DNA of 64,000 bases, taken from Microbacterium sp. 4R-513. Lineage in GTDB: Bacteria; Actinomycetota; Actinomycetes; Actinomycetales; Microbacteriaceae. Each line of letters begins with the position of its first letter. The stretch's first letter is position 1. Made by a program: the position numbers and the translations under genes. The notes beneath the pieces are model-generated. The model saw only the letters and a list, made by a program, of their open reading frames with translations, had not been told where the DNA came from and did not search any database. Location of the stretch: contig NZ_CP049256.1 in the NCBI RefSeq assembly GCF_011046485.1, forward strand, positions 1,364,001 through 1,428,000, read 5' to 3'. Of this stretch, positions 25,544 through 43,526 are shown piece after piece.

Positions 25544-26182
25544 ATGACGAACGAGACGAACGGCCGCGGCCGGATCTTCATCGACCTCTTCACGACCCTC
25601 GACGGCGTCGCGCAGGCGCCGGGCGGTCCTGACGAGGACACGTCGGGCGGATTCCCCTTCGGCGGGTGGCAGGCGCCCTTCCGCGACGAGGTCATCGGGC
25701 GCGAGATCATGGCGGGCATCTCGAACATGGACGCGCTGCTGCTCGGCCGGCGCACGTACGACATCTTCGCCGCGTACTGGCCGAACTACCGTGACGGCGA
25801 GGACAATCCGATCGCCGAGAAGCTCAACGCCGTGTCGAAGTACGTCGCGTCGCGCGACGAACTCTCGACGGACTGGGCGGGAACGACCCAGCTCGGCGAC
25901 GACGTGCTGGCCGAAGTCGACGCCCTGCGCGACCGGCACCGCGAGATCCACGTCATCGGCAGCGTCGACCTCGCCCACACGCTCATCGACGCGCAGGTTT
26001 TCGACGAGCTCGTGCTGTGGGTGTACCCGGTCGTGCTCGGCCAGGGCAAGAAGGTCTTCCCCGACGGTGTCGCGCCGACTGCGCTGCGCCTCGTCGCGCC
26101 CGCGGTGACGGGCGACTCGGGTGCCGTCTCGCTGCGCTACGCCCCGGCGGGGAAGCCGACGACCGGGGATCTGACGCGGTAG
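25544..26182 (+). CDS. Dihydrofolate reductase family protein (RibD C-terminal-like)
   Basis: 212-residue NADPH-binding reductase of the YwjB/RibD-C group. Family features: RIFIDLFTTLDGVAQAPGGP at the N-terminus, MDALLLGRRTYDIFAAYWPN in the middle, then EIHVIGSVDLAHTLIDAQVF and LVLWVYPVVLGQGKKVFPDG. Not the essential folA. Third gene of the VOC-HxlR operon, 21 bp after the regulator. Last gene before the less GC-rich accessory region. Confidence 0.9.
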   Translation: MTNETNGRGRIFIDLFTTLDGVAQAPGGPDEDTSGGFPFGGWQAPFRDEVIGREIMAGISNMDALLLGRRTYDIFAAYWPNYRDGEDNPIAEKLNAVSKYVASRDELSTDWAGTTQLGDDVLAEVDALRDRHREIHVIGSVDLAHTLIDAQVFDELVLWVYPVVLGQGKKVFPDGVAPTALRLVAPAVTGDSGAVSLRYAPAGKPTTGDLTR

Positions 26183-26475
26183 GTGGCGCCTGTCGGCGGC
26201 TCGCGATGCTCTGCGGCAGACGCCCGCGGCCGGCATATCGGGCTCGGTCACGACAGTGCCGCGGGTCGCTGACGGGTACGGAACGGATCCTCATACCCGC
26301 ACCGCACGAATAGCGGACGGGCGCGGGCATTGCTGTGCAGGTAAGCGCCGCGTACGGTCCCATCGTGTCAGTTGATGGACACGGCGCGCCGCAGAACTCG
26401 TAACTCGCATTGGACGTCGGCCGGGATATCGGGGATCCGTGCGAGAGGCTCCGCGAGCCGGTCGGCCTCTGATGC
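26183..26475. other. Gene-free left edge of the accessory region
   Basis: No convincing gene. The minus strand from 26475 to 26368 continues the frame of the NACHT gene past its TAG for 35 sense codons (beginning ASEADRLAEPLARIPDIPAD) to a TGA. No tRNA or att-like repeat recognised. Confidence 0.5.
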
Positions 26476-29217
26476 CTATGCGAGGAACCGCTGTCCCTGC
26501 GGGACTCTTGAGGCATAGTGCCTGAGGAGAAGCCGTCCGAGAGTTGCGGCGGCAGGGTCCTTCTTGACGGCCCGCCCCACCGCCCTCGCCAGCGCGCGCC
26601 GCGCAGGCTCGCGTTCGAGGGCGGTCCAGAGATCTACCGAGACCACGAGCTGGGACTCCACCAGCATCCGGGGGTCGGCGCTCCTGAGTGCCTCGAGGAG
26701 AAGGATGCCTTCGGGAATCTGCTCGACGACCTGCCCAAGTTCGGTTGCCAGAGCGTCGACGCCGCTCTGGCCGCTGCGCAGCGCTGGCTTGACGTAAGTG
26801 CGTCCCTCCGTGAGAGTCGTGCGAGCCTGCTTCGCGAGGTCGCTCATGCCGCTCTTGTTCTCGCTCAGTACCAGCGTCGCGAGACATGACGAATTTTCTC
26901 GACTGAGCTCGTGTAGCGCTTCAAGCACGATCGCGACTTCTTTGGTCGGCTGCCTTAGCGCCATGTTCAATAGTTCCGAGAGGCTGCGGGGCACGGACAA
27001 CGTGGTGTCGGCGAACTGGGACACTGCGCTCTCAAGCAGGCGTCGTCTAACCCCAGGGAACTCGATGGCCAAATTGTCGACGTAGAGATCGCCCGCGAGG
27101 CCGGCACCGATCAGGGCGATTGGGGTATCCGCACTCTTTGAGTCGTATGTGGCGACCAGGTCGATGAGCTTGTAGATCACATGCTCTTGTCGTTTGAACA
27201 CTCGACCGGCCGCGAGTAGCCAGGTGTTCCGCCAGTGGCTGGAGGGTACGAGGGCGAGCAGATTGTCGAGGACGGTTTGTTCGTCGCCCTCCGTGAGCGC
27301 GCGAGCGGCCATGTACTCCTGAAGAGAGCGGACTTCGAACTGGTACCCGGGTGCCTTCCGCGAAACGAGCATCACGAGCCGCTCGGTGGAAAGCTTCATG
27401 AGGGTATCTGCAAGCGAGTCGGACTCGCCCTCGTCGTACCCTGCGGTCTTGTTGAGCCGACGGCGGAGGATGCGGGCGATCTCGTTCTTCGTGAGCGCTG
27501 CGTCGGAGTTGCCGGCTTTCTCAGACCTAGCTTGCAACTTCAGGCCCGCCTGTTCGTGAAGATGATCGACGTGCGGACGAAGGGACTTCAGCTCCGAGAA
27601 CGCCTCGCTCTTCGCTAGTTCTCGGTCGTAGATGACCCGGTAGTAGCGATCGAAGAGCTCGAACCTGTCCGACGGAAGGTCAACTGCTTCCTCTGCCAGC
27701 GCAGTCATTATGGTGACCTGCAACGGCGTCGTCATCAGTCTTTGCGTGACCCGCTCGTGGACAGCCTCGATCAGGCGCTCAGAGACCTGCTGGGCCAAGT
27801 CAGGGTCGTCGGCGGAACGCAGGCGAGTGAGCGCGTCAGAGTAGTTAAGAGCCTCCGCCTCCGTGAACTCCAGCAAGTCCAGTTGGGTGCAGGGAATAGC
27901 TTCGCGGAACTCTCCTCGGTATCCCTGCGGTCTCGTGGTTGCGACGACGAACAGGTCCACGCCTGCAGCGTTGAGGTCGCTTACCAGCGTCCTGACCGCA
28001 TCCATGAGCCTCGTGCGATCTCGAGCATTCGGGATTTCGTCAAGGCCGTCCAGCACGAGACAGACCGGCCAGGTTCGCATCCACTCCAATAGCGCCGCAG
28101 GCTCGGCCGAGCGCCCAGCGACGATGATCGACCCGGCGATGTAGCTGAGCAGCGAGAACGGTCCTTTCGTGGTCGCAATGGAGGTCCCGGCTTTGGCGAG
28201 CTCTACGACGAAGGGCCAGCGGCGGCGCTCAGGGGTGGGAATCCCGGCTTCCTTCAGTCTCGCGGCGAGATCTTCGTAAGCTCGAACGGCGGTCGCGCCG
28301 TAGCGGCTCACGTCCGTGTCGGCGAGAAACGCGACTCGGTAACCGTGCGCGATGACCTGCGAGATGGTGCTCTTGCCCTGACCGGGGCCACCAACGACCA
28401 CTGCAGCTCTCGCTCCACCGCCGATGCCGTTTGACAGATTGTCGTCGCCAATCCGGATCACGCTCTCCGCGGTCATCGTACGATTACGATCAGCCGGGTC
28501 GCCTTCTGCCCACTCAACGTCGCATGGAAGGTCGATTGCGATGTCGGCGAGGCGCACTTTCGATGAGTCGTTGTAGCCAGAATCGCCGGTGCGTACCCAC
28601 TGGCGGTTGACGAGTTCGGACACCGCGTGTCCTGCGAGATGCTGAATCTCCAAGGCAGTTGCGGCGGAGAAGAACTCGTCGAGCTTGAGCAGAAAGTCAC
28701 CAGTGACGATCAGCTCGAAGTACCGCTGGCGGATCGCGGTGTGCTGGTCGAGCATCGTGCGGATCTCGTCGTAGTCCCAGACGTACCAGCCTTCGAGCTC
28801 CAGTTCAGTAGCAGCTGACTCCATGTAGCGGTCGAACTGGTCTCTGCCGCCGGTGCTTTTCGTACCGCTGAGCACGACATTGGTCGCGAAGAGCAGGTAC
28901 TTCGGGGTCCTGTCGCCCACACGCTTCTTAGCGAGCCAGCCGCGCACCTCTTTGCGTGCTTCTTCGAGGAACCACTGCCAGCCCTCGGTCGTCGACGCGA
29001 CTTTGTGCTTGTACTTCATCTGGATGACGCCGTAGCCGTTCCACTTGAGGCCGGCACCGCGTGGGAAGTTCACCTTGCCATTGAACGTGGCGTCCCGCTG
29101 ACCGTCACGACCAGCGCCAAACGGGCGCACTCCGTTGCCGAGTTCTGCCTTCGCTAAGGCCTGCAGCATGTGCTCGAACTGCTGCCAGCCCATTCTGCTC
29201 AGGTCGTAGTCGCCCAT
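26476..29217 (-). CDS. Mrr-like nuclease fused to a NACHT NTPase (putative defence STAND protein)
   Basis: 913 residues. Residues 8-75 resemble an Mrr-type restriction-endonuclease fold: GWQQFEHMLQALAKAELG (Glu15), GAGRDGQRDATFNGK (Asp38/Asp42) and GVIQMKYKHK (Gln66-x-Lys68). Mrr enzymes use Asp and Q-x-K. The NACHT core has Walker A VVVGGPGQGKSTISQ (276-284) and Walker B VCLVLDGLDEIPNARDR (385-400), then VVATTRPQGYRGEF and YQFEVRSLQEYMAARAL, as in NACHT/AVAST-like proteins. The C-terminal 250 residues are helical and would be the sensor. By analogy, a trigger would oligomerise the NTPase and activate DNA cleavage. ATG 29217 follows GGAAGGA. Divergent from the 1,317-aa protein. Function inferred, not proven. 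Confidence 0.88.
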   Translation of the reverse strand: MGDYDLSRMGWQQFEHMLQALAKAELGNGVRPFGAGRDGQRDATFNGKVNFPRGAGLKWNGYGVIQMKYKHKVASTTEGWQWFLEEARKEVRGWLAKKRVGDRTPKYLLFATNVVLSGTKSTGGRDQFDRYMESAATELELEGWYVWDYDEIRTMLDQHTAIRQRYFELIVTGDFLLKLDEFFSAATALEIQHLAGHAVSELVNRQWVRTGDSGYNDSSKVRLADIAIDLPCDVEWAEGDPADRNRTMTAESVIRIGDDNLSNGIGGGARAAVVVGGPGQGKSTISQVIAHGYRVAFLADTDVSRYGATAVRAYEDLAARLKEAGIPTPERRRWPFVVELAKAGTSIATTKGPFSLLSYIAGSIIVAGRSAEPAALLEWMRTWPVCLVLDGLDEIPNARDRTRLMDAVRTLVSDLNAAGVDLFVVATTRPQGYRGEFREAIPCTQLDLLEFTEAEALNYSDALTRLRSADDPDLAQQVSERLIEAVHERVTQRLMTTPLQVTIMTALAEEAVDLPSDRFELFDRYYRVIYDRELAKSEAFSELKSLRPHVDHLHEQAGLKLQARSEKAGNSDAALTKNEIARILRRRLNKTAGYDEGESDSLADTLMKLSTERLVMLVSRKAPGYQFEVRSLQEYMAARALTEGDEQTVLDNLLALVPSSHWRNTWLLAAGRVFKRQEHVIYKLIDLVATYDSKSADTPIALIGAGLAGDLYVDNLAIEFPGVRRRLLESAVSQFADTTLSVPRSLSELLNMALRQPTKEVAIVLEALHELSRENSSCLATLVLSENKSGMSDLAKQARTTLTEGRTYVKPALRSGQSGVDALATELGQVVEQIPEGILLLEALRSADPRMLVESQLVVSVDLWTALEREPARRALARAVGRAVKKDPAAATLGRLLLRHYASRVPQGQRFLA

Positions 29218-29388
29218 GTGGGTCCTTCCCTCAGATGTGGCACTGAGGTCCCATTGTGATGGCCGGCGGCCGCCGATGCCGACGGGGCTCACTAGCGCTA
29301 TGGAGCCGAAGCGCACGCAAGAGGATTCCCTTGCACCGCATCGCCCGCGAGCGGCAATCCACCCACGCGATCTGCCATGTCAATCCAC

Positions 29389-29434
29389 TTCTACAAAACC
29401 TACATTCGCCACCTCCTCTTGTGTAGAATGTAGG
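29389..29434. promoter_or_regulatory. Nested inverted-repeat operator between the NACHT and HTH-giant genes
   Basis: CCTACATTC (29399-29407) and GAATGTAGG (29426-29434) are perfect 9-bp arms. TTCTACA (29389-29395) and TGTAGAA (29422-29428) form a second overlapping pair. Together they cover the -10 box and the bases up to the ATG. The HTH at the N-terminus of the adjacent protein is the obvious candidate ligand. Confidence 0.65.
29424..29429 (+). promoter_or_regulatory. Extended leaderless -10 box (TG-TAGAAT)
   Basis: TAGAAT, preceded by TG, has its first T exactly 12 nt before ATG 29436. No Shine-Dalgarno sequence. Lies inside the inverted repeats. Confidence 0.65.
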
Positions 29435-29435
29435 T

Positions 29436-32400
29436 ATGGACGAGTTCATTGGAGTCGGCGAAGCGGCGAAGCGACTGGGGCTTCACGTGAACACGGTGCG
29501 GAACATGGCGAGGGATGGCCGACTGCCGGTAGCCAGCATCCCCGGCTCAAACCGGATCAAGTTTCGGGCCGAGGACATCGATGCCTTTGCTGCGGCCCGG
29601 GGCGAAGAGATCACGCCCAACGTTCGAGTCCGCGACGTCGAGCCTGAGCGGGTGACAGCGAACGACCTGAATGCGTGGGGCGGCAGAGTCGCTCAGGAGA
29701 AGGCGCCCGAAATGCTGCGCCGCCTTCTCGATGCGACACCAGGCATCACCCAGCTTTCCGTGCGAGCTGGCGACGGCGTCGCGCTTCGTGGCTGGGATGG
29801 ACTCGCGATGTCTGACGGCATGCACGCCAGCTACCTTCCTGCGGGTCGGCTGCGCTTCGAACTCGGTACTGACCAGAATGCCGCGGGTAAGGCAGAAAGC
29901 GACTATAAGAATCGCCTCGCCCTGCCCAGGGATGAACGCATCGTGACGAATTTTGTGTTCGTGACGACGAGGCGTTGGCCTGGCAAGACTGCGTGGGCTG
30001 AGGGCAAGTCCGCGGAAGGTGAGTTCTCGAGTGTGTCGGCGCTGGATGCCGATGACCTTGAGGGATGGCTTCAGAAGACCCCGTCAGCTCACATCTGGCT
30101 CTCGGAGCTTCTTGGTCGCTACCCGCGAGATGTGCAGACGATCGAACGATGGTGGGATGAGTTCCGGCTGTCGATGCGGGTGGAGTTGCCCGAGCAGCTA
30201 TTCGCCACAAGTCAGGAGTTCGTGCGCGAGCGTATCGCGGCACTCCTTGGCTCGACTGACTCGCGACGAATGCTCACTGTTCAGGGTCGTTCGATCGAGG
30301 AAGCTCTCGCTGTCACGTACGTGGCGCTGCATGCCCTTGAGGATCGGCCGTCGGCCATCCTCGTGAAGAGCGCCGCGGCTTGGGCGCGGCTTTCAGAAAG
30401 CAATGTGCCGCATCTTCTTATCCCGACGTTCCCGGAGCCGCCCCTCGCGTTGGCTGCCAGTGGGGGGCACCCGGTCATCCTTCTTGCGCACAAAGGGATG
30501 GCCGTCAAGCCCGGCGCCGACCTCGTCGAAGTCGCGGTCCCTGGGCGCAGCGAGACGTCACGGGTCCTCCAGGAATCGGGTATTGCATCACGCGAAGCGG
30601 AGAGGATGGCCGCGCTCTACCGCAGAAGTCCGAAGGCATTCTTCCGGTCCCTGGCGTTGGACTCCCGGGCTCAGTCCGCGGTTCCCGATTCGCACCGAGA
30701 TGATCTAGCGGCTGCTTCGCGCCTAGCGCTTGCGGTGCAATGGACGGCGGACGACGGCGACCGTGCTTTGCTCGAACGCTTGGTTCGTGCCAACTGGGAC
30801 GAGCTTGAGTCGGTGATTGTGTCGCTCTCCAGCGGTGATGATCCCGTATTCGTGCGCGCGGGAGATGCCTGGCGAGTGGCAGCACCGGTCGAAGCGTCGC
30901 TCTCTCTGTTCCCTGCCCTGACGAGCTCCGACCTCGAGCGGTGGGCGGAGGTGGTCGAAGGAGCATTGTTCGAGCACAACCCGCTGGATATTCCGGACGC
31001 GGCTGCACGTTTTGCCGCGCAGTTGCGCGGGGAGAAGCGGCCTCACTCGCGCGAGATCGAAGAGGGCCTCGCGGGAGGGGTCGCGCTAATGGCACTGATT
31101 GGAGGCGAGGTCGCGGGCCGCGCGGGGGTGGATTGGGCTGAGCGTGTAGTCGGTCGGATATTGTCGCGGGCTTCGGGGCTCGGGACCGAAGGCTGGAAGC
31201 GCATCGCACACGTGCTACCCACTCTCGCGGAAGCCGCGCCCGAGTTGTTCTTGGATACGCTGTTGGACGACCTGGGAGACGAGGCTCCAAGCCTCAAGAG
31301 CCTCTTTCCGCCCGCCGATGAGCAGACGGATGTGCTGTCTCAGACTTCGCCGCATGTTTACCTTCTATGGGCGCTTGAAGTGCTCGCGCGTTCACGAGAA
31401 CACTTCCCGAGCGCGATGAACGTCCTGGCTCGGTTGACCGATTACGACCACGGGCGAGAAAACTCCGGTAACACCGCGTTCCGAAGCCTCGAGAACCTTC
31501 TCCTGCCGTGGGTCCAGTACACGGCTGCCGGAATGTCGTCAAAGATGTTGGTGCTTCATCGACTAGTCGATCGGCGGCCCGACCTTGGCTGGCGTCTCCT
31601 GCTCCAGCTGCTGCCGAACTCGAACTCGTTCTCGATGAGCCCAAGCAGCCCGACTTATCGAGATTGGGGCCCGGAAACGCAAGACGTCTCCGTCGCAGAG
31701 TGGGGAGCCTTTGTCGGTGAGGTGACTCAGATGATTGTCGATTTGGCGGGGACGGACGTAGACCGTTGGGTTGATGTCGTTCCCTTGCTGGACGATCTCC
31801 ACCCTCGTGATTACGACATTGCGACCGACGCGATGCTCGCTGCGGCAGCAGCTACGGATATGTCAACGTTGTCGGCGCGGAGGCTGTGGGATGCGCTTAA
31901 CGCTGAGATCCTGCGTCATGAGGAATTCGCCGACGCTCACTGGGCACTCTCGAACGAAAAGCTGGACAAGCTGCGGCACGTACTGGCGGCGCTGCCTGAT
32001 CCCGGCAAGGCATCGGAATATGCTGCCTTGTTCGGATGGGACCGGGGTCGGTTGGGCCTTAACGGTGACGACTCGGCAGCGACGCTCGACGTGCCCGCGA
32101 TGCAAAGGGCCGCGGTGGCTGAGATCGTGCAGGTAGGGCGCGATGAATTGGAAAGGTTGATCGACAAGGTCGGCAACCCCCACATCATCGGCGCTCTGCT
32201 CGTGGAGCTGTCTACCGCTGAGATTGATGGCTGGGCGCTCGACTGGCTGCTCGGTGAAAGGCAGGCCCGGCGACAGGCCGCTCAGTCCTACTTCGCGCGT
32301 CGATCGCTCACTGAAGGTGGATTGGCGTGGATCGAGGCCAGACTGCGCGAGCTGCACGAAGCACCGACGGATCGCCTGGCATTGGCGCTAACCATGGAAG

Positions 32401-33389
32401 CGAACACAGCGACATGGGATCTGCTGGAGCGCATCGAAAAGAGCTTGGTCGATGCCTACTGGTCCAACGTGAGTCCATGGGTGATCGGTGAAGGGGAACG
32501 GTCTCGGGCCTTCAAAGAGCTGCTCGACCGTCACCGCCCGGTCAGTGCACTCCAGCTGTTCGACTTTGCCCTCATCCATGAGGAGAAGGGCGGCCCGGTC
32601 GTGATGGGGCCCGACGATGCGACCGCGGCACTCGATGAGATCTTGAGTGGCAACTCGGCGGAGGAAATGAGGGGGGCATCGCACAGGATTGGAACCGCGC
32701 TCGACTACCTCGCCAACAAGGGGGCCTCGGACGGCGTGATGGCGCGGTACGAGTTTCTCTTCTCTCCACTGCTTGACCGAACGACGCACTACCCCGCCGC
32801 GCTCTATCGGGTACTCCGTTCGAACCCAGCAGAGTTCGTAGAGCTGGTTTGTCTTGCGACGCGACCGGCGAGCAAGCCGAAGGATGACTCGAGAGATCCG
32901 GCAGCATCTGCTCTCGCATGGCGTGTGCTTCGCGATTGGAAGCAGCTACCGGGTACGGACGGTACAACTTGGATCCCTGACGCTGAGGAATTGACGCAGT
33001 GGGTCATCGAGTGTCGTTCTCTGCTGGCAGAGCGCGATCGGGCAAAGGTGGGCGACGAGATGCTGGGGGCTATGCTCGCATACGGTGCAAGCGAAGCTGC
33101 TGAGGGATGGCCCGCGGTCGCGGTGTGCGAGGTGCTCGAGATCGTCGGCACTCACGAGATGGAGAACGGTTTCGTCGGCGGAGTGATGGGCGCTCGAGGC
33201 TCCTGGACCAAGGGCATCTACGAGGGTGGGGATCAGGAGCGGGAACTTGCCCACCGATTTAGGGCCCGCGCGGACGAGCGTGAGGACTGGCGCCGAGTGC
33301 ACCGCGCCCTCAAGGCGGTCGCACGTGGATACGAGCGACAGGCTCAGCGTGCGGACGCTGAAGCGAAATGGGACGCGGACGGGGCCTGA
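29436..33389 (+). CDS. Giant HTH / putative PD-(D/E)XK-like protein, partner of the NACHT gene
   Basis: 1,317 residues. Residues 5-55 are an excisionase/MerR-like HTH (EAAKRLGLHVNTVRNMARDG, then a wing and IKFRAEDIDAFAAARG). Residues 85-230 look like a restriction-endonuclease-type fold: RGWDGL (Asp121), RLRFELGT (Glu142) and AAGKAESDYKNR (Lys152), then FVFVTTRRWPGKTAW and DADDLEGWLQKTPSAHIWLS. Residues 240-480 resemble a STAND-like core, but where a P-loop is expected the sequence reads LTVQGRSIEEALAV, with no GKS/T. The remaining 830 residues are helical, repeat-like and unassigned. Base use is less GC-rich than in the flanks. Probably a sensor/effector of the same module that also represses it through its HTH. 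I do not recognise a named family. Confidence 0.85.
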   Translation: MDEFIGVGEAAKRLGLHVNTVRNMARDGRLPVASIPGSNRIKFRAEDIDAFAAARGEEITPNVRVRDVEPERVTANDLNAWGGRVAQEKAPEMLRRLLDATPGITQLSVRAGDGVALRGWDGLAMSDGMHASYLPAGRLRFELGTDQNAAGKAESDYKNRLALPRDERIVTNFVFVTTRRWPGKTAWAEGKSAEGEFSSVSALDADDLEGWLQKTPSAHIWLSELLGRYPRDVQTIERWWDEFRLSMRVELPEQLFATSQEFVRERIAALLGSTDSRRMLTVQGRSIEEALAVTYVALHALEDRPSAILVKSAAAWARLSESNVPHLLIPTFPEPPLALAASGGHPVILLAHKGMAVKPGADLVEVAVPGRSETSRVLQESGIASREAERMAALYRRSPKAFFRSLALDSRAQSAVPDSHRDDLAAASRLALAVQWTADDGDRALLERLVRANWDELESVIVSLSSGDDPVFVRAGDAWRVAAPVEASLSLFPALTSSDLERWAEVVEGALFEHNPLDIPDAAARFAAQLRGEKRPHSREIEEGLAGGVALMALIGGEVAGRAGVDWAERVVGRILSRASGLGTEGWKRIAHVLPTLAEAAPELFLDTLLDDLGDEAPSLKSLFPPADEQTDVLSQTSPHVYLLWALEVLARSREHFPSAMNVLARLTDYDHGRENSGNTAFRSLENLLLPWVQYTAAGMSSKMLVLHRLVDRRPDLGWRLLLQLLPNSNSFSMSPSSPTYRDWGPETQDVSVAEWGAFVGEVTQMIVDLAGTDVDRWVDVVPLLDDLHPRDYDIATDAMLAAAAATDMSTLSARRLWDALNAEILRHEEFADAHWALSNEKLDKLRHVLAALPDPGKASEYAALFGWDRGRLGLNGDDSAATLDVPAMQRAAVAEIVQVGRDELERLIDKVGNPHIIGALLVELSTAEIDGWALDWLLGERQARRQAAQSYFARRSLTEGGLAWIEARLRELHEAPTDRLALALTMEANTATWDLLERIEKSLVDAYWSNVSPWVIGEGERSRAFKELLDRHRPVSALQLFDFALIHEEKGGPVVMGPDDATAALDEILSGNSAEEMRGASHRIGTALDYLANKGASDGVMARYEFLFSPLLDRTTHYPAALYRVLRSNPAEFVELVCLATRPASKPKDDSRDPAASALAWRVLRDWKQLPGTDGTTWIPDAEELTQWVIECRSLLAERDRAKVGDEMLGAMLAYGASEAAEGWPAVAVCEVLEIVGTHEMENGFVGGVMGARGSWTKGIYEGGDQERELAHRFRARADEREDWRRVHRALKAVARGYERQAQRADAEAKWDADGA

Positions 33390-33461
33390 GTAGTAAGAAG
33401 AAGGGCGATTCTGCGTCGACTGTCAGAATCGGTCCGCGCCGCATGCACGCAGCGGTCGCGA

Positions 33462-33740
33462 CTATGGCGGTGCGTCCGCATTCCGCCGGCCCGAGTGCCC
33501 GTCCGTTGGGATGCAGTTGGAGGGAACGGCACGATCTGTAGCCCGCATCAGATTGGCTATCGACTCGAGATCCCTGTCGAATAGATGAAGCGTCCTCGTT
33601 GAGGGGGCCACCTGATCGATATCGCGGCCCGCAGCGCGGTCCTTGAGCGCACACTGAAGGGCGTTAACCGTCGAAACCCATCGCCCGTGCAACGTTGCGG
33701 TTGCAGAGCTAGGGTTCGGAGTGCGGGGCGCGTGGCCCAT
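33462..33740 (-). CDS. Hypothetical protein (uncertain)
   Basis: A 92-codon frame from ATG 33740 that overlaps the 3' end of the secreted-protein gene by 32 bases. It has a plausible helical stretch (TLHLFDRDLESIANLMRATD) but a proline-rich start and a GC-poor third-position pattern. No family, no clear ribosome-binding site. It may be the decayed end of an older gene. Confidence 0.35.
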   Translation of the reverse strand: MGHAPRTPNPSSATATLHGRWVSTVNALQCALKDRAAGRDIDQVAPSTRTLHLFDRDLESIANLMRATDRAVPSNCIPTDGHSGRRNADAPP

Positions 33741-34165
33741 CGCGTTCGAGCCGTTGCTCCTCGGTCAGGGTGTCAGAGCCTGTCGTCACTGGGTTGCCGT
33801 CGGGATCGATGTGCCAGCTGATCATCGTGACGGTTATTGTCGCAGGGCCGCTGTTGAAGGAAACCTGCTGGGAGGTTGGCAGTCCTGCCCCCCGCACGTC
33901 GATGCCGATAGTGGCGGGTTCGCCCGTGCACTCTGGCCCCCTTGGAGCATCCCCCTCCTGCATGTTTCTGCTGGACGCCCACCGTGACAGTCAGGTTGTC
34001 GCCGGGATCGCAGACATATGTGACGAACACTCTTGCGAAGTAGCCACTCTGCAACGATTCGTCGATGCTGAGGATCGAAACCGAGGCGGACGCGGGCGCG
34101 GCGTAGGTGAGCGCCAGTACGCCACCAATCGCCAGGGCCAAGAGCGGACGTAGGGCGGATCTCAC
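33709..34165 (-). pseudogene. Small secreted protein, disrupted by a +1 shift in a G5 run
   Basis: GTG 34165 follows GGGAGG. The first frame gives a Sec signal peptide (LRPLLALAIGGVLALTYAAP, cleavage after ASA) and a mature start SVSILSIDESLQSGYFARVF with one Cys (VTYVCDPGD). The frame then derails, while an adjacent frame carries on PECTGEPATIGIDVRGAGLP to TISWHIDPDGNP-like sequence and stops at 33709. Removing one G from either G5 run (plus-strand C runs at 33951-33955 or 33937-33941) gives a 151-residue secreted protein with a Cys pair, a common actinobacterial exported beta-sandwich pattern. Function unknown. May be an assembly error. Confidence 0.65.
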
Positions 34166-34420
34166 TTTTGCCTCCCGAACTGCAGGTCTGTTCTAACGAA
34201 GGCGGTGGGGGTTGACTCCCCTTATTCCGGATCGTAGGGGACGCGATTCTCCGGTTCAATAGCCGCGCGCCCTAGGTGAGGGCCTTCAGGCCAAGACTTG
34301 GCGCTAGGCGCGCCAGCGGTCGACAACTGCCCTCGCGCGGGTCCTCAAACGTTCAGGCGGGGTGGGTGGCTGCGCGTGCTTTTCGTGCGCGTCGGTCTTC
34401 GAGGATCACGCTAGGGCGAG

Positions 34421-34603
34421 TCAGCAGGGCGCGGCGTCTAGTCGATTCCTGCGCCACATCGCCAGAAGTGCGATGCCAGAGAAGAAGACGGCCGGGAGCA
34501 AGTACCACGCATTGAAGTAGGTCGCGGCTCCACAAGCCCCTCCGGCAATCCAGCCAATGACGATTCCGGATTCCAAAAGTCGGACCTTCCAGGCGCGTGT
34601 CAC
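34421..34603 (-). CDS. Small membrane protein (60 aa)
   Basis: GTG-started frame encoding two hydrophobic helices: SGIVIGWIAGGACGAATYFN and LLPAVFFSGIALLAMW, with a basic N-terminus (TRAWKVR) and a basic stretch (RRNR) after helix 2. Amphipathic breaks and charge balance look like a real two-pass protein. No family or partner recognised. Codon use is less GC-rich, like its neighbours in the accessory region. Confidence 0.55.
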   Translation of the reverse strand: MTRAWKVRLLESGIVIGWIAGGACGAATYFNAWYLLPAVFFSGIALLAMWRRNRLDAAPC

Positions 34604-34851
34604 AGCGGCACGATACGCGACCCCAGAGCTTCACTGAGCCGGTGCTAGGTGGCCTTTGGCAATGCTTAGCCGGGGTGACTACCACTGTTCGTATCAAGAC
34701 GCTGTCCGCGACCCAATCTGTCCTCCGGTGCGCCGCCCAGGTAGGGGTGAGCTACGGCGCTCGAACCTCGACCTCCGGCCCGCGTGCCGGACGGCGAGCG
34801 TGCGGATGCCGGTCCCTGAGCGGTCGCCAACGGCGAGCGGTCCGGGCCCAT

Positions 34852-34857
34852 TAGAGT
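34852..34857 (+). promoter_or_regulatory. Leaderless -10 box (TAGAGT)
   Basis: First T exactly 12 nt before ATG 34864. Confidence 0.55.
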
Positions 34858-34863
34858 CAGATC

Positions 34864-35016
34864 ATGCAGGAAGTCGCGACGCTCACGTCGATGGTCTCGG
34901 CCATGTGGGTGACGGTGGCGATCCTCGCTGGCGGGTTCGCTCGGACTCGCAACCGCTCACCGTGGTACTGGTTCCTGGGGGATCTCAAAGGTCTCAATCT
35001 GTTCCGAGCCGCGTAG
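34864..35016 (+). CDS. Small membrane peptide (50 aa)
   Basis: A 50-codon frame: N-terminal helix with VATLTSMVSAMWVTVAILAG, then a basic, aromatic tail with RTRNRSPWYWFLGDLKGL and LFRAA at the end. Supported by a TAGAGT -10 box at the exact leaderless spacing. Its 3' end overlaps the convergent coiled-coil gene by 23 bp. Similar Trp/Tyr-rich one-helix peptides exist in actinobacteria, but I cannot name a function. Confidence 0.55.
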   Translation: MQEVATLTSMVSAMWVTVAILAGGFARTRNRSPWYWFLGDLKGLNLFRAA

Positions 35017-35836
35017 TGAGGTGAATGCTGTCAGCGAGTTCGACTGAAGCCGTAAGCCGAACGTTGTCAGCGAACTCCAGTGCCTCGTCATTGCTCCACA
35101 GGGGCACCCCATAGCCTCGCTGGCGGGCGAGGTTCTGGGCCGAAGTGATTCGCTGCGCGAGCTGCATTCGCCGTTCCTCATTTTCCAGTCGGCGTTGCTC
35201 CAACTCCTCCCGGGCGATGGCGTTCTGCAACTGCTGTGCCTCGTTCTCGAGTATCAGCCGCTCCAAGAGAATGTACTTCTCCTGCACGGTTGCCTCGAGG
35301 GTTACGTCGCTTACGATGCGCTCAAGTTCAGCCTTGGAAGCCTCCTCGGAAGCCAACCGTTTCCGCGCCTTCGCGACGTTGAAGTAGTCAAGGAAGGCGA
35401 TGATTGAGCTCGCTGCATCCTTGCCAACCTTCGCCGACGCCACGATGTCGAGGGGATTGGAGTAGCTCACGGATCGAATTACAAGAAGTTCCTCTCTGGC
35501 CGTCGACAGAGCTGCGAACGGAGGCGTCACGTCGAAGTAATGATCGGCACCCGTATCCACGCGAACCTGGCGATCGGCCCCCGGGTTCGTAGGCCTTGGC
35601 TCAAAGGTCAACAGTCCGGTTGCGGCAAGGCAGCCGAGCGCTATCAAGTCAATCGCCGCATTGATGTACGCCACCGCTTCTTCCGCCGGCAACTTCGGCC
35701 TCGTGTTCGCATAAGCATGCAGCTCGACGGGTTCCTTGCCGACTTCACGGTCTGTTCCACGAGTCGTTATGACCGGCATCCGGCAGATCCCCCCAGCGAT
35801 ATACGTTCGATGAGCCCGCACGGCGTAAATCCCCAC
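34994..35836 (-). CDS. Hypothetical protein with C-terminal coiled coil
   Basis: 280 residues from GTG 35836, with GGAGGAG 6 nt upstream. Residues about 60-75 are mildly hydrophobic (AIDLIALGCLAATGLL). The middle contains LLVIRSVSYSNPLDIVASAK and IIAFLDYFNVAKARKRL. Residues 160-245 form a long charged coiled coil (EELEQRRLENEERRMQLAQR). The end is short and globular. No catalytic motif and no family I can name. It lies in the accessory region between a tiny membrane gene and a divergent PIN-like nuclease; a role with the latter is possible only by position. Confidence 0.7.
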   Translation of the reverse strand: MGIYAVRAHRTYIAGGICRMPVITTRGTDREVGKEPVELHAYANTRPKLPAEEAVAYINAAIDLIALGCLAATGLLTFEPRPTNPGADRQVRVDTGADHYFDVTPPFAALSTAREELLVIRSVSYSNPLDIVASAKVGKDAASSIIAFLDYFNVAKARKRLASEEASKAELERIVSDVTLEATVQEKYILLERLILENEAQQLQNAIAREELEQRRLENEERRMQLAQRITSAQNLARQRGYGVPLWSNDEALEFADNVRLTASVELADSIHLTTRLGTD

Positions 35837-36138
35837 ATTATCTCCTCCTCCTCCATCGGGCGCCAGCCGACGCGCTGACGGCGGCGGTGCCGTGTCCGAA
35901 CGAGCTGCGCCCCCGGGACCGACACCTCGAAGGCACCCAAAAGGCGGCGTGCGATTGGCGCGGGCGTTCGCCTGTCATGGCTCCGACGAAGGCCTCGGCT
36001 GGACTCCACCTATTTGCAGAGTGGCTCGCGCCGATCTCGGTCGTGGAGGGCGTCCGCTCAGCGGTCGTCTTCAGTACGCAAGCGGAAACGCAGCGAGTAG
36101 CGTGGGCCATCACCCGATGTGCAGGGGAGGCCGACTTC
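35837..36138. other. Divergent intergenic region, or N-terminal extension of the PIN-like gene
   Basis: Between the coiled-coil and PIN-like genes. The frame of the PIN-like gene is open through most of it (possible earlier ATG at 35977), but no ribosome-binding site supports that start. No repeat noticed. Confidence 0.4.
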
Positions 36139-37167
36139 GTGTTCCTATTCGTCGACGCGAACGCGATCGTGAGCAACCCGCTGCTCACCGGCAGGGAATG
36201 GGACGCAGTGGCAGACGCCGCGGTCTCCGAGATTCTCGACCTTTACGTACCGGAGCTGGCGGTCCAGGAGGCCGTTGCTCGCTATCGGGACTCGGCGCGA
36301 ACGAGGCAGCGGGAATTGAGGAAGCAGCTCCGTAGGTGGCCCCCGAGTGCACGGGTGCTCCTTGAGGATGCGGTTGCGGCGTCGGATCGTTTTGCGGACG
36401 GATACGATCGTGCGCTCAGGGAGCGGTTAACTCAAATGGGCGCCTACATCATCCAGTATCCGCGCGTCCCGCACGAAGATGTGGCGATGCGCGCTATCCG
36501 ACGGGGCGCGCCTTTCGACGCGGAGGGGAACGGATACCGGGATGCGCTGCACTGGCACTCATTTTTGGAGCTTCTGGAGGAGCTAGAGCCTGAAGATCCC
36601 ATTGCCGTTCTGTTGAGCGCCGATAAGAAGGCGTTTGGCCCGCTTCGTCACGAGGAGCTTCTCCGGGAAGTTGAGGAGCTCGGCGTTGAGTGGGAGGTCG
36701 ACTTCGTGACGCACGTCACCGACTTCGTTGTTCCAGGTCAGTTCTTCGACGAGGAACAGGCGCTCGACTATCTGCAGATGACTCAACTAGAGCGCGCGAT
36801 ACGCGAGTCTCTCCTCGCCGGTGGCTGGCCAGTCGACTTTTCGTCGACACTCGCTCGTCGCGCGAACTATGACAGCGCGGAAGTCGCGAAGGTCCTTGAT
36901 ATGCATGTCGAAGAACTGACAGTGCGTATGGAGCGGCGATCCCGAGACCTGTGGCTCACCTTCACCGCGAATGCGAAGTGTCGCATCCGCTTCGAGACGG
37001 TCGAAATCCTGGACGAGGAGGTTGGCGATTTCACCGTTGTGAAGGATGTGCAGCAGTGGACGCTAGAGGTTGAGGGGAGTGCATACTCCGAGCGCAGCGA
37101 GATTCGTTCTGTCTCTGCCATAAGGCTGGTGAGTGCCGAGAGCCCCTCGGATCGATTCGTTCCCTGA
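36139..37167 (+). CDS. PIN-like nuclease domain protein (DUF4935-type)
   Basis: 342 residues if started at GTG 36139, chosen because GGGGAGG lies 9 nt upstream and it places the first catalytic Asp at residue 6 (FLFVDANAIVSNPL), as usual for PIN folds. Further acidic positions: VPELAVQEAVARYR, GNGYRDALHWHSFLEL and AVLLSADKKAFGPL, the spacing of DUF4935-type PIN-like RNases. The C-terminal 150 residues (FDEEQALDYLQMTQLERAIR onward) form a separate domain, probably regulatory. No antitoxin-like small gene adjoins. Likely a defence or toxin-type RNase (inference). ATG 35977 in frame would add 54 residues. Confidence 0.8.
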   Translation: MFLFVDANAIVSNPLLTGREWDAVADAAVSEILDLYVPELAVQEAVARYRDSARTRQRELRKQLRRWPPSARVLLEDAVAASDRFADGYDRALRERLTQMGAYIIQYPRVPHEDVAMRAIRRGAPFDAEGNGYRDALHWHSFLELLEELEPEDPIAVLLSADKKAFGPLRHEELLREVEELGVEWEVDFVTHVTDFVVPGQFFDEEQALDYLQMTQLERAIRESLLAGGWPVDFSSTLARRANYDSAEVAKVLDMHVEELTVRMERRSRDLWLTFTANAKCRIRFETVEILDEEVGDFTVVKDVQQWTLEVEGSAYSERSEIRSVSAIRLVSAESPSDRFVP

Positions 37168-37268
37168 TCTAGGTGACGGAGAAGCCGCGCTGGTTGATCA
37201 GCAAGTCGCCAACGAGGGCTGGCAGTTGCGCGTGCGCAAGCGGGTCCTGCTGCGGGCGCTCACATCGA

Positions 37269-37853
37269 CTACTCAGCGCCCGCTCGTCGCGCCCACCTGC
37301 GCCACTCGTCCGGAATGGCAGTATCGGGCACGAAGCTCCGCCCGAACGTCACGTAGTGCGGAAGCATTCGCCCACGCCCGGACGGCGCTGGATAGGAGAG
37401 GTTGTGATGGTGGATCAGGCCGGCGCGCCGGACCTTCAGCAGCAGCCTCACCAGGCGCTCGACATGCTGCGCCTCGCTGTCGATCGGCGAGGCGTCCCGC
37501 AAGGACCAGCGCAGTACGCGCCATTGGACATCCGGGTCCTCGGAGTAACCGAGGCTGAGGTTCGCGTGGATGATGAGGTCGCGTTGTTGCAGCAACAGCC
37601 TTGCAGCATGGCACCACGCGAGCAGCTTTCCGCGCTCGACGTCAGACCAAGGCGGCACGCCGAGATCGCCCACGCGCGCCTCCAGTAGCCCGATCGCGCG
37701 CTTGGCGGACTGAAGTTGAGGGTTCGCGATCCCGTAGATGCGCGCGATGGCGTAAGCATGGTGCTCGACGTCGGCGGCGACGAGCACGAGATCACCGAGC
37801 GCGAGGCGCAGCTCCGTGGGCACGTCTCGCTCGATCCAGGTTGGCTCGTCCAC
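37269..37853 (-). CDS. Hypothetical helical protein (194 aa)
   Basis: Begins GTG 37853 (MDEPTWIERDVPTELRLALG). Mostly alpha-helical by pattern (LVLVAADVEHHAYAIARIYG; AWCHAARLLLQQRDLIIHAN), ending in a basic tail. The R-x3-D/H-x2-H arrangement around RDLIIHAN recalls HEPN-like R-x4-6-H motifs, but the match is loose and I do not assign it. No recognised family. A weak CAGACT box sits 12 nt upstream. Confidence 0.6.
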   Translation of the reverse strand: MDEPTWIERDVPTELRLALGDLVLVAADVEHHAYAIARIYGIANPQLQSAKRAIGLLEARVGDLGVPPWSDVERGKLLAWCHAARLLLQQRDLIIHANLSLGYSEDPDVQWRVLRWSLRDASPIDSEAQHVERLVRLLLKVRRAGLIHHHNLSYPAPSGRGRMLPHYVTFGRSFVPDTAIPDEWRRWARRAGAE

Positions 37854-38085
37854 GCGCTCAGTCTGCCCGAGCGGCGAGGCTCAACCTGGATCGACCCAGG
37901 GTCGGGTTCGGCGTTGGAAGCGCCTCCGGTCCGCGACGCACGCGCTCGAGAGTCGGTCGATCTGCGGGCTTTGCGCGTGGAGGGGCCGTCCGGTACATGG
38001 GTTGCGGCACTCGATTGAGAAGCCGGTTGCGGGCGGGGAGCGGGTCGAGCCGGGTCGATGACGCGGTCCGACCAGTGGGGTGCCG

Positions 38086-38091
38086 TAGGTT
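38086..38091 (+). promoter_or_regulatory. Leaderless -10 box (TAGGTT)
   Basis: First T exactly 12 nt before GTG 38098. Confidence 0.6.
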
Positions 38092-38097
38092 CGTTCT

Positions 38098-38727
38098 GTG
38101 CGAAGTCGGGCTATCTATGTCGAGACTTCGATCCGTGCCGACGTGGATGCGGTGTGGGATGCCACCCAGGACCCCGCCCAGCACGTGCGCTGGGATGTGC
38201 GGTTCTCGAGAATCTCGCCCGTCGGGGTGACCGTGGCCGGCGCCTCGACATTCACCTATGAACGGCGTGTCCCGTTCCACACCGTGCGGGGAAGCGGGGT
38301 CAGCCTGGGCGAGAAGACTGGTCTCGACGGGGCACGGACGTCGGCGTTGCGGTTCCAGACGGAGGATCGCTTGTCTCCGATCGCCGCGGGTCGGGGCTAC
38401 TGGAGGTACGTCGCCGATGGGCGGGAGGTCACGCTCTTCGTCACGGGCTACGACTACAACCCGGGGTGGGGTGTGCTGGACGTGGTCGTGCGCCCGCTTC
38501 TCGGGTGGGCGACGGCATGGAGCTTCGACCGGCTGCGGATCTGGTTGGAGACCGGTGTCCCGCCCGAACGATGGCCGCTATGGAGCGTGTTCTGGTGGTG
38601 GCGGTCGGACCGCCCACGTGCCTCCCGTTGTCTGCGAGCACCACGGGGCAGATCGCGGCGCGACGACCATCTCGCCGACGCGCCACCGTCCCTGGCGGCC
38701 CTGCCGGACCCGGAGGTGATCCGGTGA
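38098..38727 (+). CDS. SRPBCC-fold protein
   Basis: 209 residues. The first 165 resemble a START/SRPBCC ligand-binding fold (YVETSIRADVDAVWDATQDP; VRWDVRFSRISPVGVTV; GRGYWRYVADGREVTLFVTG). The last 40 are an arginine-rich, unstructured tail. Start GTG has a leaderless -10 box. Its TGA overlaps the GTG of the DUF4166 gene, so the two are translationally coupled. Probably binds a hydrophobic small molecule; ligand unknown. Confidence 0.8.
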   Translation: MRSRAIYVETSIRADVDAVWDATQDPAQHVRWDVRFSRISPVGVTVAGASTFTYERRVPFHTVRGSGVSLGEKTGLDGARTSALRFQTEDRLSPIAAGRGYWRYVADGREVTLFVTGYDYNPGWGVLDVVVRPLLGWATAWSFDRLRIWLETGVPPERWPLWSVFWWWRSDRPRASRCLRAPRGRSRRDDHLADAPPSLAALPDPEVIR

Positions 38728-39392
38728 CATCGATCTTCGAGGTGGCGCTCGGGGCTGAATTCGATCGGCTGCACCCCATGATGCGACGACGGTTCAGTGT
38801 GGGGCTGGACTCCGGTGAAGCATGCGTCGGGCGCGGAGTGATGACGAGCATCCGGCGCGGGCCGTGGTGGACCATCCCGTTCCTCCAGATCGGCCGCTTG
38901 CGCAACATCCTTGTTCCCGACACCGGCACCGACGTGCCGTTCGTCATCGAGAACTTCCCCTACCGCGATCCGCTCGGTCGAGAGACAGTCACGTTCGTGC
39001 GCGAGTACACCATCGGAGCGAAGCACCGCCGGTTTGACGCGACCATGATCCTCGACGACGGCCGGATCGTCGACTACCTCGGCACGCACCAGCACCTCGC
39101 CGTCGACCTCGACCTTCGCGTCGACGACCGTGGAGGGCTCCTTCTCACCTCGGACTCGCAACGCTTCTACGAAGGACCCATCGGCTTCCGCTTCCCCATG
39201 CTGTTCAGCGGTCGCGCCCGCCTCCACGAGTACTTCGACGACAGCGACCAGTCCTTCCACATCGACCTTGAGGTCCGCAACCGCCGCTTCGGGTTCCTCT
39301 TCGGATACCGCGGCGCGTTCCAGGCCGAATGGATAGTCGCGACCGACGCACCAGCCCGACTAAAGCCTCACCGCCACGAAGCCAGAACATGA
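38724..39392 (+). CDS. DUF4166 domain protein
   Basis: 222 residues from GTG 38724. Typical DUF4166 features: LHPMMRRRFSVGLDSGEACV, then VMTSIRRGPWWTIPFLQIGR, VPFVIENFPYRDPLGRETVT and the conserved IVDYLGTHQHLAVDLDLRVD, then SQRFYEGPIGFRFP. Biochemical function of the domain is not established; in other genomes it often accompanies saccharopine-dehydrogenase-like or SRPBCC proteins. Here it forms a two-gene operon with an SRPBCC protein. Confidence 0.88.
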   Translation: MTSIFEVALGAEFDRLHPMMRRRFSVGLDSGEACVGRGVMTSIRRGPWWTIPFLQIGRLRNILVPDTGTDVPFVIENFPYRDPLGRETVTFVREYTIGAKHRRFDATMILDDGRIVDYLGTHQHLAVDLDLRVDDRGGLLLTSDSQRFYEGPIGFRFPMLFSGRARLHEYFDDSDQSFHIDLEVRNRRFGFLFGYRGAFQAEWIVATDAPARLKPHRHEART

Positions 39393-39462
39393 CTCAGGCG
39401 CTCGCTACCCGGTCCCGGTGCGGGCCAGCCGCGCTCGCACCATGTGCGGTCGAGCTCGCACC

Positions 39463-40074
39463 TCACCCTGCGGGCGGGCGTCTGGCGAGGATCGCTCCAT
39501 GAGGTCGGGGCTTGGGCTCGCGTCCCGTTCTGGTGTGGGTCTCGACGACGTCAAACCCCGCGACCTCTAACTCGTTCGCCAACGCTTCCGGCGCCCAGCG
39601 GTAGGCGGTGACAACCGTGTGATCGAACGGCTCGACCAAGGGTCCGATGAAGAATCCCACCAACAGCGCGCCACCCCCCTGAACGACCCGAGCGAACTCC
39701 TCCAGCGTTGCGCCGACGGTGCTCGGCTCGTGATGGATGAGTGAGTACCAAGCGAGGATTCCGCCTACGCTGCCGCTTTCAAACGGCAGTCGGTTAATGT
39801 TGCCGAGTTCGAAAGGCACTCCCGGGTAGGCGTCGCGTGCGTGCTCGATGAACTCCGGTACCTCGTCGATGCCGCGGACGACGTGGCCCTCTTCGGTGAG
39901 ATAGGCGGACCAGTGCCCCGGGCCGCACCCGGCGTCCAGGATGGGGCCGTTGACGTGAGCCGCCCACGACGTGATCAACTCCACGTCGGACGGGTGGGCA
40001 GCCGCCGTCGAGCCCAGCGCTCGCACATACTCAGCCGCCCGATTCGAGTACGCAGCCTGGACGTCCAAAGACAT
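39463..40074 (-). CDS. Class I SAM-dependent methyltransferase
   Basis: 203 residues. N-terminal cap YSNRAAEYVRALGST; SAM motif I PILDAGCGPGHWSAYLTEEG; acidic loop RGIDEVPEFIEHA; motif II/III around RLPFESGSVGGILAWYSLIH. Small-molecule methyltransferase fold; substrate unknown. Start ATG 40074 with TAGGCT 13 nt upstream. Stands alone. Confidence 0.88.
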   Translation of the reverse strand: MSLDVQAAYSNRAAEYVRALGSTAAAHPSDVELITSWAAHVNGPILDAGCGPGHWSAYLTEEGHVVRGIDEVPEFIEHARDAYPGVPFELGNINRLPFESGSVGGILAWYSLIHHEPSTVGATLEEFARVVQGGGALLVGFFIGPLVEPFDHTVVTAYRWAPEALANELEVAGFDVVETHTRTGREPKPRPHGAILARRPPAG

Positions 40075-40081
40075 GATCGAA

Positions 40082-40087
40082 AGCCTA
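40082..40087 (-). promoter_or_regulatory. Leaderless -10 box (TAGGCT)
   Basis: First T (40087) is 13 nt before ATG 40074. Confidence 0.5.
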
Positions 40088-40257
40088 GAAGGGTATCCGG
40101 ACCGGCTTCCACGCGCGCGCCCGCCGGTCCGCCAACGCGCGCATTTCGGGGCCGTGGGTTCCGTCCACCCTGAGCGCAGCGAGAAGCGAGAGGGGTTCTG
40201 CTCACCCGGTCTTGTTCACGCTACCCCGCGCTTGTACGGCTCGCCCGATGCCGGGGT

Positions 40258-40914
40258 TTACCGGCCGATGGGGCGGAGCGCGAGTAGCTTCTGTGCGCTC
40301 TCGACGGCGTGGGCGGTCAGTGCGCTGGCGGGTGCGGAGTTGCCGAGCAGGCCGCCGATGGGAGTGAGTTCCAGTCGACGGGTGACATCATCGCTTCTCC
40401 ACTCCAAGACGTCCGTCCATTCCAGAACAATCCGGTCCGCTCGTGCTCGGCCGCGGGGCGACACGTTGACGTACTCGAGCGTGCGGATCTGGGCGGCTTC
40501 GATGAACTCCTTGTGCTGTGGAGGGAGCCCAGACCACAACGAGATCGAATTCTCGCGGATCACCAACACATGCGACCATGCCGAAGCAAGAGCAGGCGCG
40601 GAAAGCGCGAGTTCCTTCTTAGCCTCCTTGGAGATCGTCACTTCCAGGACAATCGCTGACGGATGGGCTGCTTTGATCAGCGCGATTCGAACCCTACGCC
40701 AGATGAGGATCACCGACGCGAGTATCAACCCGAGCCCAATCCCTAATGGAAAGGCGAACGCACGGGACAGGCGCGTGTACGACCGGTTCGCGAGGAGCTC
40801 ATCCATATTGTCCATCGTCAGCTCGGGAACGATGTGGTACAGCCGCGCCGCCAGCAACAGGAACAGCACCCCGAGCGGAGCCAACAGCGCCGCTCGTACG
40901 CCGATCCTCGTCAC
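40258..40914 (-). CDS. Hypothetical two-helix membrane protein
   Basis: 218 residues. Two hydrophobic helices at about 5-27 (AALLAPLGVLFLLLAARLYH) and 58-80 (AFPLGIGLGLILASVILIW), followed by a cytoplasmic domain of about 135 residues (SWSHVLVIRENSISLWSGLP-like strands; IRTLEYVNVSPRGRARADRI), a pattern seen in small PH-like or YcxB-type domains, but I cannot assign it. AAGGAGG ends 5 nt before GTG 40914 and only 2 nt before ATG 40917, so GTG is preferred. Confidence 0.7.
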   Translation of the reverse strand: MTRIGVRAALLAPLGVLFLLLAARLYHIVPELTMDNMDELLANRSYTRLSRAFAFPLGIGLGLILASVILIWRRVRIALIKAAHPSAIVLEVTISKEAKKELALSAPALASAWSHVLVIRENSISLWSGLPPQHKEFIEAAQIRTLEYVNVSPRGRARADRIVLEWTDVLEWRSDDVTRRLELTPIGGLLGNSAPASALTAHAVESAQKLLALRPIGR

Positions 40915-41137
40915 CATGACCTCCTTGTAGATCGTGCCATGACAGCGGATGCCCAAATCCCATGACCCCCGCACCTGCGAACACATCCAGCCGCCACCGG
41001 CTCCCTTCACGACGTCGGCCCCTGTCAAGACGCGACAACCGAGGGCGACGCCACCCCGAACGAGTCCACCGTCGTTCGCTAGTCGGTCGTCCTGTGTGCG
41101 TCCGCGTAGCAGCAGTAGCGCTCCCAATTGCGGATGG

Positions 41138-41920: not shown

Positions 41921-42067
41921 GAATAACCAACCTAAGGCAGCCCACAGGCAAGCACGCAAGCGGTCCCTGGCCGGGCTCCATACGCAATCGCCGCCGACTC
42001 CCGTTGCCCTGTGCGCCCCGCGCACGATAAGCCCGCCCGCGCACATGCCCGTTGGCGGTTCCTTGGG

Positions 42068-42087
42068 TTCTTGCGGTGGTCGCAACA
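42068..42087 (+). repeat. Left terminal inverted repeat of the IS30 element
   Basis: TTCTTGCGGTGGTCGCAACA. The reverse complement of the right end matches at 16 of 20 positions. Confidence 0.7.
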
Positions 42088-42095
42088 CTTACTGA

Positions 42096-43262: not shown

Positions 43263-43271
43263 CCGCTTGAA
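43252..43271 (+). repeat. Right terminal inverted repeat of the IS30 element
   Basis: TGTTGCGATGACCGCTTGAA. It overlaps the last codons of the transposase. Confidence 0.7.
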
Positions 43272-43375
43272 TCCGCCGTTCCGTATACGCACGCTCCATC
43301 CGGAGCTGCACTCCGCAGCCCCGCACTCGTGCCCGCAGGAGCGTCGGGCGTCGGCGCTTTCGGAGGGCTCGGCGG

Positions 43376-43406: not shown

Positions 43407-43526
43407 ACACCGGGCACCACGGGGCGATCCGGCGTCGGGGGGCAGGGCGGGGCTGGTGCGGGTTCGGCGGCGGCCCGCTCGACGCAGACCGCCGAGGTGC
43501 GACGACGCGAGACGGACCCGTCGGCG

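Follow-up and report, generated by a model that had tools for sequence, protein, structure and literature searches.

Closest described systems and the locus

In build, the closest described counterparts of the two genes reported here are the published PD-(D/E)XK-NACHT defence proteins bNACHT25/32 of clade 6 (PMC12169576), and Avs4 (AVAST type 4) together with the Mrr_cat-nuclease STAND proteins of P4-like satellites (PMC9122126). Inactive STAND (iSTAND) modules are found in the BrxB, BrxF, PglW and PglZ fusions of BREX and in MoxR-vWA ternary systems, and have been proposed to act as a sensor or switch for an effector (PMC12839542, PMC8195603, PMC7159879). Subunits of BldC, a regulator with a MerR-like helix-turn-helix (HTH), each bind a 9-bp site, and sit head to tail on direct repeats (PMC5859096). 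Here, we analyse a window of 64,000 nt from Microbacterium sp. 4R-513 (NZ_CP049256.1; all coordinates are positions in this window), in which two large genes diverge: a left gene of 913 amino acids (aa) on the minus strand (26476-29217) and a right gene of 1317 aa on the plus strand (29436-33389), hereafter the giant. A sequence-only reading had proposed that they form a paired defence system. We consider it probable that a genomic island instead carries them as independent single genes, the left encoding a nuclease-NACHT receptor and the right a STAND-like nuclease with a dead nucleoside triphosphatase (NTPase) that is autoregulated through its HTH.

The giant keeps its nuclease residues and lacks Walker motifs

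The 1317-aa open reading frame (ORF) of the giant was found as previously described, and is predicted to encode, in order, an HTH, a PD-(D/E)XK nuclease domain, a STAND-like fold without Walker motifs, a winged-helix-like part and a long C-terminus, all on the plus strand. The N-terminal HTH (residues 1-57, 29436-29606) is indeed excisionase/BldC-like, scoring 42.9 bits against PF12728 (HTH_17; cut-off 27) and 37.1 bits against NCBIfam TIGR01764 (cut-off 28.8). The nuclease domain follows at residues 68-227 (29637-30116). The nuclease residues named from the sequence were borne out by the alignment of the window with 78 of 80 genome loci (L060 and L066 were dropped for a stop within the matched stretch): D121 and E142 are present in 79/79 loci and K152 in 77/79, as is R160 in 79/79. 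In a larger set of 156 proteins (P0002-P0043, and P0164-P0277 from the best 120 of 466 matches), the ungapped rows gave D121 in 144/144, E142 in 146/147 and K152 in 147/147.

The earlier description of the remainder as about 1,000 further helical residues needs correction. In the structure model, residues ~245-415 (30168-30680) take an alpha/beta fold of NTPase type, which Foldseek places with STAND proteins, and residues ~418-487 (30687-30896) show the H-E-H-H-E-E order of a winged helix, from which that assignment is inferred. The C-terminal region (residues 488-1317, 30897-33386) is conserved in the family and is the presumed sensor; the structure model reaches residue 560, and residues 488-560 are mostly helices. 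Compared by Foldseek, residues 68-560 matched Avs4 first (8dgf_A, E 9.6e-7), followed by SAMD9, Apaf-1 and AVAST5. A second structure comparison ranked general AAA+ chains as high as STAND chains for the NTPase-type fold, and its highest-scoring solved structure for the nuclease domain was MspJI, a modification-dependent enzyme. A profile search of solved structures returned five chains at E <= 10 (best 0.0075), HTH and NTPase-like.

No Walker A motif was detected in the STAND-like fold in any of the 79 genome loci or in 152 proteins, and no Walker B motif in the 79 loci, six of which match a looser hhhD pattern. GKS or GKT occurs within the aligned stretch in four rows (P0183, P0255, P0259 and P0265), none of them there as G-x4-GK[ST], and three relatives (P0037, P0205 and P0207) carry a full Walker A motif elsewhere in the chain. 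Judged by these motifs, all the relatives examined have a dead STAND-like NTPase, and nearly all of them keep the nuclease residues.

No paper describing the giant was found among those listed in searches of the open-access literature. Against PADLOC-DB 2023, a library that predates later-named systems, the giant matched mad1 at residues 1-57, which is the HTH, in addition to a chance-level MTase match. When 37 rows of the family were compared with the same library, mad1 was matched by 19, PD-Lambda-4_A by 10 and MTase_II by 10, and the others mostly by one row, among the 25 of 102 families listed. The basic alignment of the giant has 41 rows (the window and 40 of 41 matches; P0003, 97% identical, was dropped), and a version of 37 of these rows omits P0005, P0031, P0040 and P0042.

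The giant family is widespread and occurs in mobile settings

A scan with one peptide pattern returned 542 related stretches, and the family spans many bacterial phyla as well as two archaeal metagenome bins. When 72,556 plasmid records were searched, its members turned up in 22, half of which (11) are conjugative. Integrases account for 6 of 135 ORFs neighbouring giants at 28 loci (from 29 chosen by hand), and defence genes are scattered among the neighbours listed, an observation made without a background rate. A constant partner gene was sought by clustering 1341 ORFs from 94 loci, and no neighbour cluster was present in more than eight loci; the largest (8/94) looks by eye like an integrase. 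Among 50,697 phage records, the sole relative was one partial match (residues 84-399, 22.6%), and a viral structure library gave only general AAA+ matches.

The N-terminus varies across relatives: the HTH may belong to HTH_17, to HTH_3 (HigA-like) or to an ArsR-like class (P0230, P0265), and 75 of 156 relatives have fewer than 20 residues before the position of residue 75, which leaves no room for an HTH. P0214 and P0027 carry N-terminal extensions of 191 and 198 residues with no Pfam match. At the other end, P0037 (1658 aa) has an extra C-terminal SMC/AbiEii-like ATPase with a P-loop near residue 1313; one row of the giant alignment matches AriA and HEC-01A models, and this is presumably P0037.

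The class of HTH tracks a site in front of the giant's own gene

Upstream of the giants with an HTH_17 domain lies a site whose clearest form is AGTCCACAA twice in tandem, a 9-bp direct repeat. A -10-like hexamer follows it, close enough to the ATG for leaderless transcripts to be possible; a sigma-70 scan of window positions 29150-29500 returned no promoter, so this leaderless reading was made by eye. At up to four mismatches to CACAAAGTCCACAAT, the site was present in 24 of 30 HTH_17 loci, in none of 62 loci without an aligned HTH_17 and in none of eight with another N-terminus, and shuffles reached the same threshold in 119/3000 cases. At up to one mismatch, it was present in 17/30 HTH_17 loci versus 0/3000 shuffles. 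These counts cover 100 of 104 loci, those with a region under 80 bases or a match starting after residue 100 being dropped; wherever the walk of the dinucleotide shuffle failed, a plain shuffle took its place. The consensus CACAAAGTCCACAAT was read off the same loci, near-duplicates included, and the HTH-less loci are thus the fair control.

In 20 of the 24 HTH_17 loci that have the site at up to four mismatches, the direct repeat ends exactly 16 bp before an in-frame ATG or GTG, and the site is kept across giants of merely 39-48% protein identity. The agreement between the two repeat copies, in registers set by hand, is 9/9 bases in L008, L012 and L085 and lower elsewhere, down to 1/9 in L016, with 5/9 in the window. 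Giants with an HTH_3 domain have a different element by the ATG, a palindrome near GTCATAT-N5-ATATGAC, found at up to two mismatches in 5/7 of these loci and in 0/93 others, its pattern likewise having been read off the loci counted. Autoregulation is the likely reason for such an HTH-linked promoter site, and we conclude from this pattern of sequences that the HTH would be an exchangeable autoregulatory module in the giant family.

In the window, a candidate operator resembling the relatives' site lies at 29389-29406 on the plus strand, with the variant copies TTCTACAAA and ACCTACATT at a 9-bp step, and ends 29 bp before the ATG. No second copy was found in the genome of strain 4R-513 at up to three mismatches, which alone indicates no function. 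An alternative candidate operator is an inverted repeat at 29398-29435 (arms 29398-29412 and 29421-29435, 87% complementary), which runs right up to the ATG. The giant of the window most likely shares the proposed autoregulation of its relatives, with a changed site.

The giant can also be understood in two other ways. The giant might be a DNA-guided restriction enzyme in which the HTH steers the nuclease to sites on the invader and the C-terminal region is merely a scaffold, as the fusion of an HTH to a nuclease whose top solved match in the second comparison is a modification-dependent enzyme, and the variety of HTH classes across members, might suggest. We regard this as unlikely, since the many relatives without room for an HTH indicate that the family does not need such steering, and since the class of HTH tracks a site near the start codon of the giant's own gene. 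A slimmer chance still is left to the giant being an addiction, maintenance or stress regulator of mobile elements, with no antiphage role, in which an antitoxin-like HTH and a nuclease toxin are joined in one chain. The annotation of the HTH_3 members P0028 and P0030 as HigA-family antidotes, the occurrence on plasmids and the short distance between promoter site and start codon all fit this explanation; the STAND-like fold and the conserved C-terminus of ~800 residues speak against it, being closer to infection sensors than to toxin-antitoxin proteins.

The left gene resembles known nuclease-NACHT receptors

The left ORF is present as described; it extends over 26476-29316 on the minus strand and encodes 946 aa from a GTG. 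With the ATG at 29217 as start, the product is 913 aa long, a length that close homologues cover in full (100%). The predicted protein consists of an Mrr-type nuclease domain, a NACHT NTPase and a C-terminal part (26476-29217). Against Pfam, it scored 27.5 bits for NPHP3_N (cut-off 24.8) and 19.9 bits for NACHT, under the cut-off of 26.7 for that model; PF05729 NACHT was detected at E <= 0.01 in 48/48 alignment rows, the window included. Both Walker motifs had been called intact, and the 48 rows agree: in Walker A (residues 276-284, 28366-28392, minus strand) G276, G277, P278, G279, G281, K282 and T284 are invariant, as are D390, G391, D393 and E394 in Walker B (residues 389-394, 28036-28053, minus strand). 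The NACHT alignments drew on 47 and on 91 of the 120 matches listed out of 478 for the NACHT protein.

The N-terminal PD-(D/E)XK (Mrr-like) domain spans residues 1-168 (28714-29217, minus strand). Among the nuclease residues proposed for it, Q66 and K68 are conserved in at least 90% of rows; the proposed Asp42 is present in the window, and the majority consensus has E at this position. Across the 48 rows, D38 and R41 do not vary. The structure model of this region is a PD-(D/E)XK nuclease that matches Avs4 best, and also AspBHI and MspJI; structure prediction thus returned a nuclease fold for the N-terminal region of each of the two proteins. The build is that of the proven antiphage nuclease-NACHT proteins bNACHT25/32 (PMC12169576). 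By this analogy, the left gene most likely encodes a further nuclease-NACHT protein of an already known immune-receptor type, with a putative antiphage role.

The two genes meet at a seam

The two genes are divergent, and 218 bp separate the ATG at 29217 from the ATG at 29436, as the earlier reading had it. A block holding the giant (29256-33653) but not the NACHT gene occurs in genome G658 at 95.8% DNA identity, and a block holding the NACHT gene (26474-29258) but not the giant occurs in G536 at 92.3%; within 17 kb, neither copy shows more likeness to the window on either side of its block. The NACHT block ends and the giant block starts at 29256-29258, three bases that the blocks share. What had been taken for a common promoter is a seam, ~40 bp of which go with the NACHT gene and ~180 bp with the giant. 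A small gene abutting the giant copy in G658 (L133, 10083-10493) reads by eye as an XRE-type regulator. Near the NACHT copy in G536, a large ORF (L134, 926-4432) resembles a TrwC-type relaxase, which would imply a conjugative element.

Among 94 giant loci, a NACHT homologue was found near the giant only in the window itself and at none of the 93 others, a check that is incomplete where flanks reach only ~1.5 kb (L082-L132), where contigs end early or where, at a few of the 93 loci, the giant match is weak or partial; the genome-wide counts are free of this limitation. In 398 genomes of the family, the giant was present in 13 and the NACHT protein in 12, with both only in the genome of the window. 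Among the 366 genus genomes, 15 have the giant and 41 the NACHT protein, with both in G000, G467 and G477; in G467 the two lie 56 kb apart, with a match over residues 271-643 only, and in G477 they are on different contigs. These three co-occurrences compare with 1.7 expected (P(>=3) 0.23), or two with 1.5 expected when the genome of the window is omitted (P(>=2) 0.47). No co-location outside the window was found in either survey, each of which scored at most two candidates per genome, so weak copies may be missed. Within this scope, the pair fails the check that the earlier reading had set for it, that of homologues lying side by side.

A single two-component defence system, with both genes transcribed divergently from a shared promoter, is, in spite of their arrangement and the short distance between their starts, highly improbable, given the two independent homology blocks that join inside that promoter, the lack of a NACHT homologue at the 93 other giant loci and co-occurrence at chance level in family and genus. 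The two are most likely separate, independently moving nuclease genes rather than one unit. Three observations weigh against the explanation we prefer, that of independent cargo with a self-regulating giant. Relatives of both proteins occur in a single 3.68 Mb record of Microbacterium sp. 1P10UB (co-occurrence at the level of the record), which would suit a paired system. The operator-like site of the window has five mismatches in 15 positions to the consensus of its relatives, a level seen in shuffles, and would therefore not stand out alone; it also lies 13 bp further from the start than the 16 bp of most relatives.

The island that holds both genes

Both genes lie in a genomic island (26183-43526) bounded by a ribD-like gene (25544-26182, plus strand) and an xth-like gene (43527-44369, minus strand). 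The island is less GC-rich than its surroundings, as had been noted, at 64.0% versus 70.9% and 70.4% in the flanks. Fifteen genomes, including that of the window, were searched for both boundary genes, whose spacing is 68 bp in G526, 38 bp in G532, ~3 kb in G467 and ~6 kb in G490; because this spacing differs among genomes, the island is read as an insertion at a strain-variable site. G526 and G532 have almost no gap, and in G467 and G490 other genes fill it (L137-L140). Elsewhere in the island, one gene encodes a PIN_12 domain protein (35887-37167; Pfam, 57.2 bits) and two others carry class I methyltransferase domains (Methyltransf_25/11; 39463-40074 and 41138-42088); at the right end lies a transposase-like protein that combines HTH_38 with an rve integrase core (42096-43262).

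Proposed mechanism

Sequences and structure models show the domain make-up of the two proteins, the retention of nuclease residues where Walker motifs were lost, the different histories of the two genes and, in relatives, a promoter site linked to the class of HTH. An antiphage function is suggested by the build, the mobile settings and the scattered defence genes nearby. In the left protein, the C-terminus would sense a cue caused by the phage, after which the ATP-binding NACHT domain would assemble and bring together the Mrr-type nuclease domains, which would then cut DNA and stop the infection. In the giant, sensing of a cue is probably the task of the C-terminal region; the inactive STAND-like fold may serve as a scaffold that passes the signal on, and DNA cleavage would fall to the PD-(D/E)XK domain. 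The N-terminal HTH would bind the giant's own promoter, on 9-bp direct repeats in the relatives, and so limit the level of the protein, in the manner of an antitoxin acting on its operon; repression of its own gene by the HTH is more likely than activation.

A bolder idea, to which we give little credence, is that the HTH-nuclease-dead-STAND giants are single-protein immune receptors in which DNA-bound storage replaces nucleotide switching. Head-to-tail copies on the repeats of their own promoter would repress the gene and hold the nuclease inactive, an infection cue at the C-terminus would free the pre-assembled nuclease, and the various HTH classes and sites would be interchangeable versions of this arrangement.

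On the explanation that we prefer, the giant seems to be a widespread and little-described type, without an energy-using switch and seemingly in control of its own gene. Different promoter sites go with different HTH domains, which points to a need for tight control of expression, in keeping with a dangerous nuclease. Removal of the false two-gene system leaves a sharper object, an immune-receptor-like family that in all members examined keeps its nuclease and lacks the energy-using switch, and raises the question of how a receptor-like giant turns on without a nucleotide.

Comparison with known systems

The left gene is likened to bNACHT25/32 by description rather than by sequence, in that an N-terminal nuclease fold is followed by NACHT with intact Walker motifs (PMC12169576), and its nuclease domain has Avs4 as its best match. 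The giant shares with Avs4 the order of nuclease then STAND, and differs in having no Walker A or B and an added N-terminal HTH, the likeness covering residues 68-560. Of the features of Avs/AVAST proteins, it thus has the STAND-type fold behind an N-terminal effector and lacks the working P-loop NTPase.

With BldC-type regulators (PMC5859096), the giant shares a MerR-like HTH and, in the sequences of its relatives, candidate sites built as 9-bp direct repeats; unlike them, it has its HTH fused to a nuclease and its site before its own start codon, and the sequence of the site differs from the AATT-based repeat of BldC. It agrees with the iSTAND modules in having a STAND fold with degenerate Walker motifs. 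In contrast to the cases described for BREX and the MoxR-vWA systems, which are parts of multi-gene systems, the giant has no conserved multi-gene neighbourhood, and is instead a single gene that brings its own nuclease, HTH and long C-terminus.
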